Assembly: GCF_004103825.1 (NCBI RefSeq)
Contig: NZ_RYFI01000001.1
Span: forward strand, 155,000 to 191,161
DNA: 36,162 nucleotides
Direction of reading: 5' to 3'
Source of the DNA: Hansschlegelia zhihuaiae
Lineage (GTDB): Bacteria; Pseudomonadota; Alphaproteobacteria; Rhizobiales; Methylopilaceae
Shown here: in pieces, positions 2,458 through 33,806 of the stretch
Layout of the letters: each line of letters opens with the position of its first letter
How positions within the stretch are numbered: position 1 is the stretch's first letter
The notes under the pieces: model-generated
The model's database searches: none
The model's input: the letters and a program-made list of their open reading frames with translations, nothing else
Told to the model about the DNA's origin: nothing
Translations under genes and position numbers: made by a program

Positions 2458-3866
2458 GCGTGGGACCGCTGCGGCGCGTCGGTTCCCGCGGCCTCGTCCC
2501 ATACGCCTGCGAGCTGGTCGGCGAGCCTGCTGGGCGCATAGGCCTCGGCGACGCGGGCGCGCCCCGCCTCGCCCATCCGCCGCCGGGTCTGCGGGTCGGC
2601 CGCGAGGTCGGCGAGCGCCTCCGCGAAGGCGACGACGTCGCGCGACGGCGCGAGCCGGCCGGTGACGCCATCGAGAACGTTCTCGACTAGGCCGCCCGAG
2701 GCGTAGGCGACGACGGGCCGACCGGCCGCGCCGGCTTCGAGGGGAACGCGCCCGAATGGCTCGGACCACAGCGTCGGCAGCGCGACCACGTCGCAGTCGC
2801 GATAAAGCCGGGCCAGGGTCTCGCCGGTGACGTGGCCGTGCAGCGTGACCCGGTCGGTCACGCCCAGGCGCCTCGCGACGCGCTCGATCTCGCTGCGCGC
2901 CTCGCCCTGCCCTGCGAAGTCGATGCGGGCGTTCGGGATGCGGGCGACGATCTCCGGCCAGGCCTCCAGCAGATGCGCCTGTCCCTTGTTCCTGGTGAGC
3001 GTGCCCACGACCAGAATGGAGAAGCTCTCGCCGCCCGCGCCCAGACCATGCTGCGGAAGCTCGACCGGCTCGAGCGGCAGCCGTTTAAGACGCCCGGCGG
3101 GCACGATCTCGGCGAGCGTCTCCGCGAGATGCGCGCTGGTCGCGATCACCGCCGTCGCCCGCCGCAGGCAGGCCTGACGATAGGCGAGCGCCGCCCGGGC
3201 GCAGCGGGCGGCGAGCCGTTCGCGGAACGTCAGGGCGTCGTCGGGCGGCCCGAGCGCCTGATCGAAGCGCAGGCTGGTGAAGCGATGGTCGCGAACGAAC
3301 GCGACGAGCGGCTCGGCGCGCTCGGCGAGCACGTCGGCCGCCATCATGATCGAGCGTGCGTTGTCCGCATGGACGACGTCCGGCCGGACCGCGTCCAGCA
3401 CGGTCCGGATCTCCGGCTGCACGCGTCCCTCCGGCACGGTCGCGTGCGCCATGCGGACGCCGCCCGGCGGATCGCCCACGAGCCGCAATCCGAGAGCCGG
3501 CCCATGGATCTTGGGATCCCGCAGGGCGCAGGCGGCTGCTTCGGCGAGAAACTTGGGCCATTTGAGGCCGTAGCGCCGCGCCTTCAGGCGCTCCACCTGA
3601 TCCTGCGACATGCGGTGCAGCGGCCAGGCGGCGTTCATCGGCAGGGCCAATACGTCGACGCCGTCGATTTCGCGGCGGCGCGGCCCGGGCAGGGACTTGT
3701 CGAAGGTCACGACCAGCGACTGGTCGCGCAACGCCGGCTCCCGCATCAGCAAATGCAGGCTGAGCTCGGCGCCGCCGCCGGAATCCGGCGGATAGCGGTC
3801 GGACAGGACGACGACGCGGCGCCGGCCGATCTCGGCCGCGATGCGCTGCAGGTCGCCAACTCTCAT
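2454..3866 (-). CDS. Glycosyltransferase family 4
   Basis: A 470-residue GT-B enzyme. The N-terminal acceptor domain begins VVVLSDRYPPDSGGGAELS (about residues 17-35), the usual glycine-rich entry loop of GT4. The C-terminal donor domain begins ILVVGTLTRNKGQAHLLEAW (about residue 285) and contains EPFGRVPLEAGAAGRPVVA, matching the EX7E donor-binding motif of Glycos_transf_1 (PF00534). It should move a sugar from a nucleotide donor to a lipid-linked or polysaccharide acceptor at the cytoplasmic face of the inner membrane. It is the first gene of the overlapping three-gene series, and about 110 bp without a gene lies upstream, where a promoter would sit. No membrane segment is seen. Confidence 0.9.
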   Translation of the reverse strand: MRVGDLQRIAAEIGRRRVVVLSDRYPPDSGGGAELSLHLLMREPALRDQSLVVTFDKSLPGPRRREIDGVDVLALPMNAAWPLHRMSQDQVERLKARRYGLKWPKFLAEAAACALRDPKIHGPALGLRLVGDPPGGVRMAHATVPEGRVQPEIRTVLDAVRPDVVHADNARSIMMAADVLAERAEPLVAFVRDHRFTSLRFDQALGPPDDALTFRERLAARCARAALAYRQACLRRATAVIATSAHLAETLAEIVPAGRLKRLPLEPVELPQHGLGAGGESFSILVVGTLTRNKGQAHLLEAWPEIVARIPNARIDFAGQGEARSEIERVARRLGVTDRVTLHGHVTGETLARLYRDCDVVALPTLWSEPFGRVPLEAGAAGRPVVAYASGGLVENVLDGVTGRLAPSRDVVAFAEALADLAADPQTRRRMGEAGRARVAEAYAPSRLADQLAGVWDEAAGTDAPQRSHA

Positions 3867-15539: not shown

Positions 15540-16253
15540 TTACGTAAGCCGAGAACCCGGCGGGTTCGCGGCCCCGCCTTCGCCGCCTGCGGCGAGCAGC
15601 GCCTCGAGCCGCTTCCGCTCCGCCTCGCTCAGCGACGGGGCCGAGGGGCGCTCCTTGCGCCTGCGGAACGCCCAGACGAGGTAGCCGACGAGACCAATCC
15701 CAAGAATAGCAGGCGCGAGCCCCCAGAGCAGCAGCGTTTCGCCGCGCAGCCGCGGCCGGAGCAGCACGAACTCGCCATAGCGGGCGGTGAGGAAGGCGAG
15801 GACTTCGTCGTCGCTGTCGCCCGTCTTGACCCGTTCGCGCACGAGCAACCGCAAATCTTTTGCGAGCGGGGCGTCGGAATCGTCGATCGACTGGTTCTGG
15901 CAGACCATGCAGCGCAGCTCTTCCCCGAGCGCCCGGGCGCGCGCCTCGAGCTTCGGGTCCTGCAGCTGCTCGCCGGGCTGCACGGCGAGGGCGGGGACAA
16001 AGTCGAAAGCAGCAGCGAGCACGACAAGCGCTGCGCCGAGGTAAAGCCTGCGTAGAGGTGCTGCGTGCTTCGAGACGCCTCGGCTGGCGCCGAGGCTCCT
16101 CAGCATGAGGAGGGAAGCGCGCTGCACCATCGACCGCTGCGATCCGCCGTTTCGTCTTCCAACTTCGCTTCCGCCATCCTCCGCGCTCCTCATGCTGAGG
16201 CGCCGGCCGGAGGCCGGCGTCTCGAAGCACGCAGCACGTCGGAGCCGGAGCAT
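15540..16253 (-). CDS. ccmH: Cytochrome c maturation protein CcmH with repeat-derived N-terminal extension
   Basis: CcmH (CycL) reduces the apocytochrome c CXXCH cysteines before haem attachment. Here the redox motif is [11 protein letters not shown] (C115 and C118 from this start), followed by the family helix and a C-terminal membrane segment ([20 protein letters not shown]) and charged tail. Family members are usually about 150-160 residues; this reading is 237. The ATG at 16253 shares one base with the ccmF stop (TGATG), the expected coupled start. About 60 extra residues (roughly 7-66) are encoded by a pair of inverted palindromic repeats, and only then comes the hydrophobic [16 protein letters not shown] segment. 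Alternative starts exist at internal ATGs (M42 or M50), but these also lie within or beside the repeat. Confidence 0.88.
16058..16112 (-). repeat. Palindromic repeat unit 1 in ccmH 5' region
   Basis: This 55-bp unit is the inverted copy of the one at 16186-16237. The outer 22 bp (16058-16079) and inner 15 bp (16098-16112) match the other copy exactly in reverse complement. Its central hairpin, GCCTCGGC / GCCGAGGC, differs from the other copy while staying paired. The pattern (CTCATGCTGAGG ... TCTCGAAGC) resembles the abundant dispersed palindromes of Bradyrhizobium-like genomes. Confidence 0.9.
16186..16237 (+). repeat. Palindromic repeat unit 2 in ccmH 5' region
   Basis: This 52-bp unit is the mate of 16058-16112 in opposite orientation. 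Its central hairpin is CGCCGGCC-GGA-GGCCGGCG, a different stem from the mate, so the hairpin has changed on both sides together. The pair, including the spacer, spans 180 bp, a multiple of three. Confidence 0.9.
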
Positions 16254-18241
16254 CACTCCGCCGGCTGCAGCGCGGGCGCGGGGCGGGCCGCGGCTTTCCG
16301 CGGAGCCCCCACCCTCAGCCGCCGGTCGGCGAGCGACAGCGTCGCGCCGAACGCCATGACGACGGCGCCGAGCCAGATCAGCAGCACCAGCGGCTTGTAT
16401 TGCAGGCGAAGGCCGGTCGCGCCGTCGGTGCGGGCCTCGGCGGTCGCGGCGTAGAGCTGAGACAGGCCGAAGGTCGCGATGCCGCTCTCGGCGAGGTCCA
16501 TGCGCCGGGCCCGGTAGATGCGCCGCGCGGGCTCGACGGTCGCGACGACGCGGCCGCCCTCTCGCACCGTCAGATGCGCGACCGAAGACGCATAGTTCGG
16601 CCCGGGGCGTTCCCGCAGCCCGTCGAAGGTGAGTTCGAAGCCCGAAAGGGCGACGGTCTCGCCCGGCTTCAGCGCCACTACCTTCTCGCTCGACCAGGCC
16701 GAGGCCGCCACCACGCCGATCAGCGTCACGCCCATGCCCGCATGGGCGAAGGCCGCGCCCCAGGAGGAGGTCGGCAGGCCCTTCAGCCGCGCGAGGCTGT
16801 CGGCCGCCGGCGCGCGGAACAGTTTTGTCCGTTCGACGATCTCGGCGAAGGCGCCGCAGATCGCGAACAGGCCGATCCCGATCCCGATCGGAGCGAGCGT
16901 GGGGCCTCCGCGGACAAAGCCCGCCACGAGGCAGGTCGCCACGATCGCGATCCCGAACGCCGCGACCAGACCCCTGGCGGCGCGGCCGATGTCGCCGCGC
17001 TTCCAGGCGAGCAGCGGCCCGAACGGCATGATCAGCATCAAAGGCAGCATGATCGGCCCGAAGGTCGAGTTGAAGAAGGGCGGGCCGACCGAGATCTTCT
17101 CGCCCGTCGCGGCTTCGAGCGCGAGCGGGTAGAGCGTGCCGACGAACACCGCGGCGGTCGCGGCGGTCAGGAAGATGTTGTTGACGACCAGCGCGCCCTC
17201 GCGGCTCACCGGCGAGAACACGCCGCCCTGTTTCAGCGCCGGCGCGCGTAGCGCATAGAGCGTGAGGCTGCCCCCGACGAAGACGGTGAGGATGATCAGG
17301 ATCGCGACGCCGCGCGCGGGATCGACCGCGAAGGCGTGCACGGAGGTCAGCACGCCGGAGCGCACCAGGAAGGTGCCGAGCAGCGACAGCGCGAAGGTCA
17401 GCAGCGCCAGCAGGATGGTCCAGACCTTGAGCGCCTCGCGCTTCTCCATCACCACGGCGGAATGGAGCAGCGCGGTGCCCGAGAGCCAGGGCATCAGCGA
17501 GGCGTTCTCGACCGGGTCCCAGAACCAGAAGCCGCCCCAGCCGAGCTCGTAATAGGCCCAGTAGGAGCCCATCGCGATGCCGAGCGTGAGGAAGCCCCAG
17601 GCGGTCAGCGTCCAGGGCCTCACCCAGCGCGCCCAGGCGGCGTCGATCTTGCCCTCTATCAGCGCCGCGACCGCGAAGCTGAAGGCCATCGAGAAGCCCA
17701 CATAGCCGAGATAGAGCAGCGGCGGATGGATCGCGAGGCCGGGGTCCTGCAGCAGCGGGTTGAGGTCCTGTCCCTCGATCGGCGCGGGCGCCACCCGGGC
17801 GAACGGGTTCGAGGTGACGAGCACGAACAGCAGGAACGCGGTCGAGATCATCGCCTGCACGCCGAGCACGTCGGCCTTGAGGCGCTGCGGAAGGTTGCGG
17901 CCGAAGACCGCCACCAGCGCGCCGAACAGCACCAGGATCAGCACCCAGAGCAGCAGCGAGCCCTCGTGGTTCCCCCAGACGCCGGAGAACTTGTAGACCA
18001 GCGGCTTCGCCGAATGGCTGTTCTCGACGACGTTGAGCAGCGAGAAGTCGGAGGTGACATAGGCGTGGGTCAGCGCCGCGAAAGAAATCGCGACCAGCAC
18101 GAACTGCGCGACCGCGAGCGGACTCGCGAGGCCCATCAGCGTCGCGTCGCGCGCCCTCGCGCCCCAGACCGGCAGAACGGACTGCAGGATCGCGAGCGCG
18201 AGCGCGAGGACGAGCGCGTAGTGGCCGGTCTCGGCGATCAT
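16253..18241 (-). CDS. ccmF: Cytochrome c haem lyase subunit CcmF
   Basis: A 662-residue polytopic inner-membrane protein of the CcmF (CycK) family. The tryptophan-rich WWD signature is present as [19 protein letters not shown], along with the haem-handling region around [14 protein letters not shown]. It works with CcmH to attach haem to apocytochrome c at the periplasmic side. The start at MIAETGHYA overlaps the ccmE stop (ATGA), and its stop overlaps the ccmH start, showing tight translational coupling. The longer frame upstream is arginine-rich and is discarded. The last 15 residues form an Ala/Pro-rich cytoplasmic tail. Confidence 0.97.
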
Positions 18242-18738
18242 TTCGGCGCCCCGGCCGGGGCGTCGCCGCCGCGCCATTCGCCCTGCGCCTTCAGGCGGTC
18301 GGCCACGTCCTTCGGCATGTAGTTCTCGTCGTGTTTGGCGAGCACGCTGTCGGCCTTGAACACGCCGTCCGGCCCGACCGCGCCCTCGGTCACCACCCCC
18401 TGCCCCTCGCGGAACAGGTCGGGCAGCATGCCGACATAGACCACCGCCTGGTCGGCCCTGTTGTCCGTCACCGTGAAGCGGACCGTCGTGCCCTCATGTG
18501 CGACCGAGCCCTGCTTCACCAGGCCGCCGAGCCGCATCCGGGTGCCGGGCGCGTCGGCCCGCTGGGCGATCTCGCTCGGCGTGCGGAAGAACACCAGCGT
18601 GTCCGTGAAGGCGTTGAGGATGAGCGCGGTGGCGGCGGCGAGCGCGAGGCCCACCAACGCGAGCAGGGCCAGGCGGCGGCGCTTGCGGGCGCTCGCCCGG
18701 CGGCGCGGAGAGGGGAAGGCTGAAGCGTCGATCGTCAT
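18238..18738 (-). CDS. ccmE: Haem chaperone CcmE
   Basis: A 166-residue protein of the CcmE (CycJ) family. One N-terminal membrane anchor ([18 protein letters not shown], about 24-41) follows a basic cytoplasmic stretch, with an OB-fold periplasmic domain after it. The haem-binding motif [11 protein letters not shown] gives the covalent H136 and Y140. It carries haem from CcmABCD to CcmF/H. The ccmABCD genes are not in this window. It overlaps ccmF by 4 bp and follows ccmI by 10 bp. Confidence 0.97.
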
Positions 18739-29600: not shown

Positions 29601-29637
29601 CTTGTATCTCTGTGGTTGGACGTGGCGCGCCGCCGTC

Positions 29638-29661
29638 ATGTCCCGGCCTTGAGCCGGGACC
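29638..29661. repeat. 24-bp palindromic repeat, copy A
   Basis: GTCCCGGC-CTTGA-GCCGGGAC forms an 8-bp stem with a 5-base loop, flanked by AT and C. An identical unit lies in reverse orientation at 29724-29747 and another copy at 36102-36125. This kind of repeat is common between genes in Hyphomicrobiales. Confidence 0.9.
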
Positions 29662-29723
29662 GATTTTTCGCGGCTGCTTCCGAAAAGAGCGCGCGGGCTG
29701 TCTTGCTCGGATTGAGCCGAATG

Positions 29724-29747
29724 GGTCCCGGCTCAAGGCCGGGACAT
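29724..29747. repeat. 24-bp palindromic repeat, copy B (inverted)
   Basis: This is the reverse complement of the copy at 29638-29661; the two flank about 60 bp that include TTTTTCG and CGAAAA. Together they form a composite inverted repeat in the gap between the gp15 gene and the DUF2793 gene. Confidence 0.9.
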
Positions 29748-29757
29748 GAGCGTGGCG

Positions 29758-33701: not shown

Positions 33702-33806
33702 CGTCATCCCGGACGGCGGCGAAGCCGCCGAGCCAGGATCGTCATCAGGATCAAGTTTCGGTCTGTTCGCGATCCCGGATCGGCCTGACGGCCGTCCGGG
33801 ATGACG
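33702..33806. repeat. Composite palindromic repeat upstream of gp15
   Basis: Outer 15-bp arms CGTCATCCCGGACGG (33702-33716) and CCGTCCGGGATGACG (33792-33806) are perfect inverted copies. Inside lies a second hairpin, CGGCGGC-GAA-GCCGCCG (33714-33730). It is a different family from the 24-bp unit and resembles REP-like elements. It marks the left border of the low-GC insert. Confidence 0.88.

Follow-up and report, generated by a model that had tools for sequence, protein, structure and literature searches.

The ccmF-ccmH junction of Hansschlegelia zhihuaiae raises the question of what becomes of a repetitive, palindromic DNA element that lies among the first codons of a gene for cytochrome c maturation, a process reported to need CcmH in E. 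coli (PMC3601427). In the 36,162-nucleotide stretch of this genome analysed here (the window), the initial annotation described a double palindrome inserted in frame between the coupled start of ccmH and its hydrophobic segment, and proposed that the N-terminal extension may delay membrane insertion or be removed, or that translation may restart inside it. We considered these fates in the light of the other copies of the element, the same junction in related genomes, and the reading frames and start codons that the inserts leave available.

Anatomy of the repeat within ccmH

The two genes are identified by strong Pfam matches, ccmH to PF03918 (E 9.9e-50, 168 bits against a cut-off of 25) and ccmF to PF16327 (E 4.3e-112), and they are coupled, the ccmF stop TGA (16255-16253) overlapping the ccmH ATG (16253-16251). 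The features of the locus are as follows.

15540..16253, minus strand: ccmH, 237 codons counted from the ATG, with the Pfam CcmH domain downstream of the element
16253..18277, minus strand: ccmF, listed from its first ATG; the true start may be nearer 18240
16251..16255, minus strand: TGATG, in which the ccmF stop and the ccmH ATG overlap; in coding order it precedes the element
16186..16237, minus strand: 52-bp palindromic unit that comes first in the coding direction, with an in-frame ATG at 16193
16113..16185, minus strand: spacer of 73 nt separating the two units, with an in-frame ATG at 16130
16058..16112, plus strand: 55-bp second palindromic unit, in the opposite orientation to the first, with an in-frame ccmH ATG at 16106
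15984..16057, minus strand: host-coded remainder of the CcmH signal segment, ending A-L-A, with a GTG at 16022 as its sole in-frame start

The element at 16058-16237 begins at about ccmH codon 6, ahead of the hydrophobic segment, and is an inverted pair of palindromic units of 180 bp, or 60 codons. Its outer arms (16058-16079 and 16216-16237) match exactly over 22 bp and, when extended, over 25 nt at 96%, while the inner arms (16094-16112 and 16186-16204) match over 19 nt at 95%, including 15 bp that are exact, which confirms the double repeat as first described. As RNA the element has a predicted folding energy of -125.5 kcal/mol (z -8.45), equalled by none of 200 shuffles. Rfam at its gathering thresholds gave no match within the window.

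A dispersed family of inverted pairs

The initial annotation left it to a genome search whether the unit has other copies, and it has many. With 40 of its 137 candidate places scored, a 191-nt query gave at least 155 BLAST matches in the window's genome to this element, here called family A. We examined the window and 38 stretches surrounding such matches; leaving out a short fragment in L178, they contain 41 copies, every one an inverted (+/-) pair of one unit. The family comprises two size classes: 36 copies are 112-131 bp long with spacers of 18-29 nt, and five (L176, L178, L180, L181 and the window) measure 147-180 bp and have 46-73 nt between the units. The longest of all is the ccmH copy. 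The aligned unit consists of GCGTGCTTCGAGACG, a variable hairpin, and TCCTCAGCATGAGGA. Five inner pairs of this hairpin stay paired despite changes on both sides across 26 aligned units, bearing out the earlier statement that the central hairpins differ between copies while remaining paired.

By a codon model, 30 of the copies lie between co-directional genes, nine between convergent and two between divergent ones. Among the 34 with a co-directional next gene, five lie wholly in the open frame of that gene, and four of these have a start after the element (ATG at 21, 22 and 50 nt; GTG at 99 nt). The ccmH copy alone is wholly in frame with no nearby downstream start except a GTG. For this genome we therefore reject the idea that family A generally inserts in frame. 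The copy with the GTG 99 nt on (L209 1964-2090, minus strand, G000:C3) is a possible second translated one. L176, a candidate second in-frame case on the grounds that the same coding frame runs in both flanks, was ruled out by stops in that frame. A Y1 transposase of the RAYT type (PF01797) was found neither in the window's genome, a 97.5% complete draft, nor in 11 of 12 congeners; the sole genome of the 13 with a match, G004, has a weak one, and the control search was positive in five of 14 named genomes. Elsewhere in the window, two further intergenic inverted palindrome pairs lie at 29636-29749 (TCATGTCCCGGCC...) and 33702-33806 (CGTCATCCCGG...), the second resembling the family B described below.

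Different repeats at one junction in sister species

The genus sample comprises 13 genomes under a GTDB-type grouping, including that of the window (G000), from the Methylopila group of methanol-using bacteria. Inspection by eye finds an element at the ccmF-ccmH junction in ten of them.

Family A (five genomes): G000, G006, G008, G010, G011
Family B, CGTCATCCCGG type (three genomes): G002, G004, G009
Family C, CGTCATCCCCCGG type (one genome): G007
Family-D-like insert (one genome): G005, with no strong inverted repeat
Empty junction: G001, G003, G012

The distance from the ccmF stop to the CxxC codon is 239-344 nt where an element is present (344 in G000), compared with 143-149 nt in the three element-free genus genomes and 125-133 nt in five of five outgroups from the family. 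These short junctions, along with the frame preservation described below, support the earlier view of the element as an insert in the ccmH frame. Family B is dispersed, with at least 52 matches in G004, 49 in G002, 43 in G009 and 58 in G008, as is family C, with at least 76 in G007 and 29 in G012; family A has at least 82 in G008 as well (in each genome, no more than 40 candidates were scored per search). Dispersal is established for these three families, while D and the inserts outside the genus are known from the junction only. By eye, the elements at the genus junction appear to represent at least three unrelated families.

The presence of other palindrome families at this junction in sister species was not foreseen in the initial annotation, and because of it the phenomenon seems to belong to the junction more than to the element. 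The initial annotation had named as grounds for refutation any orthologues carrying the same extension without repeat homology. In form such orthologues exist, since the CcmH extensions from families B, C and D share no homology with A; being repeats too, those extensions do not refute insertion.

Reading frame and start codons

Whether the inserts are read as protein depends on where CcmH starts. One account holds that the element is a spacer, translated in part or not at all, that CcmH restarts inside it (at 16193, 16130 or 16106) or after it, and that the upstream frame is open incidentally. We consider this unlikely. Several observations do speak for it. The G000 element contains in-frame ATGs at each of these positions, in addition to the coupled ATG ahead of it at 16253. 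The ccmH frame is indeed open through both units, as first reported, but so are three more of the six frames in this copy, so that the openness of a single copy proves little; 89 of 240 frames are open in 40 dispersed family-A copies. N-terminal REPs, according to Di Nocera et al. 2013 (PMC3733652), may often be extragenic, with translation starting downstream.

The comparison across inserts points the other way. The count covers 24 inserts with a palindrome at ccmF-ccmH, drawn from the genus, named and drawn sets; inspection by eye covered the loci with longer gaps, L089 being a half element. Left out were L064 (misplaced anchor), L087 (additional small ORFs), L124, L139 and L147 (lacking a paired palindrome), L079 and L083 (the same genomes as L014 and L023), and L295, L248 and L298 of the drawn set. 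The ccmH frame stays open in 22 of the 24, against an expected 12.3 calculated from the number of open forward frames, out of three, in every insert (P 1.2e-5). When likely shared events are merged by removing L013, L023, L255 and L137, it is open in 18 of 20 events against 10.7 expected (P 2.9e-4). The frame of the coupled start is kept in 15 of the 20 (P 1.7e-4 against one third); it is also kept in 70 of 96 loci with no element at the junction.

The start codons available differ from one insert to the next. In L099 and L138, the two inserts whose ccmH frame is closed, a new ATG follows the element, in line with a restart, and L127, L255, L091, L016 and L282 likewise offer a potentially usable ATG at the element's end or beyond it. 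Among the family-A carriers, G006, G010 and G011 are no longer in frame with the coupled start and would depend on GTG or TTG starts, with an ATG after the element in G011 and a TTG in G010. In G000 the sole start after the element is the GTG, 13 codons before the mature protein, and a start at 16106 would still translate most of the second unit. Also speaking against a restart is G008, whose element contains no in-frame ATG, GTG or TTG. That leaves the coupled ATG at the ccmF stop and a GTG placed 8 codons ahead of the mature protein, and the start must be the former. In G000, G006, G008, L096 and L135, any start between the element and the hydrophobic core lies only 8-14 codons from the mature N-terminus.

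The repeat as a probable part of the CcmH leader

The same account meets a further difficulty in the length of the leader that the host itself encodes. In the three family-B carriers, only 12 (G004), 13 (G002) and 12 (G009) residues of zero charge separate the element from the mature protein, compared with a leader of 23-25 residues, not counting a Met, in the empty genus genomes. A Sec leader of such shortness is one without an n-region. Because these 12-13 uncharged residues lack that region, the family-B repeat should supply the CcmH leader's charged part together with some of its hydrophobic core. The situation in G000 is different in degree. Its host-coded signal segment reaches a hydrophobic peak of 2.58 (on the Kyte-Doolittle scale only) and ends in A-L-A, a motif found by script; since this host-coded part appears to be full-length, the repeat there would be an extension of the leader.

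Taken together, we favor the reading in which REPIN-like DNA is translated as a disposable leader of CcmH, with a probability of roughly 0.7 as judged from the sequences. A dispersed, REPIN-like palindromic repeat would have inserted a few codons past the coupled ccmF stop and ccmH start, and its 60 codons would be read as precursor sequence, separating the CcmH start from the hydrophobic core of the signal peptide. The repeat-coded residues would then be cleaved off together with the signal peptide, and since they go with it, the mature CcmH would be unchanged. In family-B carriers the whole charged part and some of the hydrophobic part of the leader would come from the repeat. Of the fates first proposed for the extension, removal fits best, as the element lies wholly upstream of the predicted A-x-A/mature boundary. 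The strong RNA hairpin runs counter to a translated leader, as it would be expected to hinder translation. So do a codon-usage model, which classes 16043-16315 as non-coding, the ATGs inside the G000 element, the shifted frame in G006, G010 and G011, and the ATGs that several inserts offer at or past their end.

A disposable leader would also make the ccmF-ccmH junction a safe harbor, where an insertion just 3' of the stop codon meets the codons of a cleaved leader and not those of a folded domain. An in-frame insertion would be harmless there and a frameshift would not, which would explain the observed frame bias. The ccmI-ccmE and ccmE-ccmF junctions presumably have no such tolerance. CGTC-tagged REPs are described as lying near where the upstream gene ends (Di Nocera et al. 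2013, PMC3733652), and at ccmF such a placement would already fall within the leader codons of ccmH.

Occupation and turnover of the junction

The junction is a firm hot spot within the genus. By an automatic rule (inverted-repeat score of 15 or more), six of 13 ccmF-ccmH junctions are positive, compared with seven of 212 junctions elsewhere in those stretches (one-sided P 1.4e-5). A threshold of 12 (9/13 against 35/212) was set aside because one of its nine positives, G012, is element-free by eye. Beyond the genus the evidence is only suggestive. Among 80 named loci, five from the genus and 75 from outside it, the junction is positive in 10/80, compared with 1/71 for ccmI-ccmE and 2/75 for ccmE-ccmF (P 0.002); expressed per kb (1.13 for ccmF-ccmH against 0.59 for ccmE-ccmF and 0.29 for ccmI-ccmE), the excess is about two- to fourfold, less than per junction. 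In an order-wide draw there is no significant enrichment, with 3/100 at ccmF-ccmH against 1/94 and 0/94 at the other two junctions (1/188; P 0.12); a fourth insert, L255, was spotted by eye. The inserts of L127 and L255 resemble in appearance the RIME-type mosaic elements of Rhizobium. At L087 (Xanthobacter aminoxidans) a ccmF-ccmH gap of 598 nt holds no palindrome but two small ORFs, which may resemble a toxin-antitoxin-like pair. At its ccmE-ccmF junction, the operon of L096 (Brucella endophytica) has another palindrome pair (3505-3662), different from the one at ccmF-ccmH.

Repeated occupation of one junction within a genus, whatever the family, would also be expected if the palindrome were kept for regulation, as a hairpin in the ccmF-ccmH mRNA that adjusts the CcmF:CcmH ratio or shields the mRNA upstream of it, the families being interchangeable. 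The strength of the hairpin suits this role, and REPs elsewhere are said to stabilize upstream mRNA and to act near stop codons (PMC5082802; PMC3733652). However, the element is absent from three genus genomes and from nearly all drawn outsiders, and the junction of G012 is empty despite the family-C matches in that genome, from which it follows that the element is not needed. We therefore hold a regulatory purpose to be improbable.

Near-identical genomes G002, G008 and G009 carry families B, A and B, respectively, with 66% support at the relevant tree node, and at least seven changes are required on the tree of CcmI, CcmE, CcmF and CcmH. One alignment of the family-A spacer of G008 with family B hinted at a B footprint; the other G008 spacers differ from it and from each other. 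Descent of all junction elements from a single old insertion, with drift accounting for their different looks, is scarcely credible: they share the junction and lie similarly far from the stop (by eye, about 16-35 nt), but in the carrier genomes A, B and C each form a dispersed family of their own, and near-identical relatives differ in family even allowing for the support at that node.

Returning to the leader reading, its wider form would make the junction a landing site independent of family, where unrelated repeats in succession become signal-peptide sequence (the charged region and some of the hydrophobic one) and are swapped between close relatives while the mature CcmH stays unchanged. 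We advance this form tentatively, as a possibility short of even odds.

Comparison with known repeat systems

Family A resembles the REPINs of Bertels and Rainey 2011 (PMC3116915) as described there, with an inverted pair of short palindromic units around a less conserved spacer, mostly between genes, seen here in at least 41 pairs. It differs in its units of about 43-55 nt with a covarying inner hairpin and in the ccmH copy, which lies inside a reading frame. The inverted doublet with a spacer and the dispersal mainly between genes were both found and a RAYT in the genome was not; family A is thus built like a REPIN but is not filed as one, since no RAYT was detected. It shares with the CGTC-tagged REPs of Di Nocera et al. 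2013 (PMC3733652) an alphaproteobacterial host, mostly head-to-head dimers, the lack of a dedicated transposase, a position near the 3' end of the preceding gene and some intragenic copies. Families B and C begin with CGTCATCC, by eye, whereas family-A units have no unpaired CGTC (or TGTC, CCTC) end and run GCGTGCTTCGAGACG...TCCTCAGCATGAGGA. In the available sections of that study N-terminal copies are taken as mostly extragenic, which at ccmH some cannot be, and those sections make no mention of a signal-peptide use of REPs. They do report different REPs at about the same recB site in two Xanthomonas species, which is a precedent for a site effect.

The likeness to Rickettsia palindromic elements drawn in the initial annotation holds in that both are palindromic repeats of 100-180 bp found in frame in a protein gene (PMC10969869, PMC3733652). 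It fails as a habit. The Rickettsia elements are described as entering many unrelated genes with a conserved peptide (PMC10969869), whereas entry into many unrelated protein genes was not seen for family A: only five of 34 copies are in frame, four of them with a later start, and one of 41 must be translated, at an N-terminus that would be cleaved. The earlier interpretation as a whole is partly supported. A literature search, judged on titles and the openings of abstracts, found nothing on ccmH with palindromic repeats.

Repeats within coding sequences are usually read as tolerated accidents or as mis-annotated starts. Here, close relatives present an empty site and three or more apparently unrelated repeats at one codon-level position, some of them with no alternative start codon. 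With genomes this close that have the site empty or variously filled, some lacking any other start, it becomes testable how selfish DNA may turn into protein, why it would concentrate at a disposable N-terminus, and how it may spread with no RAYT detected.
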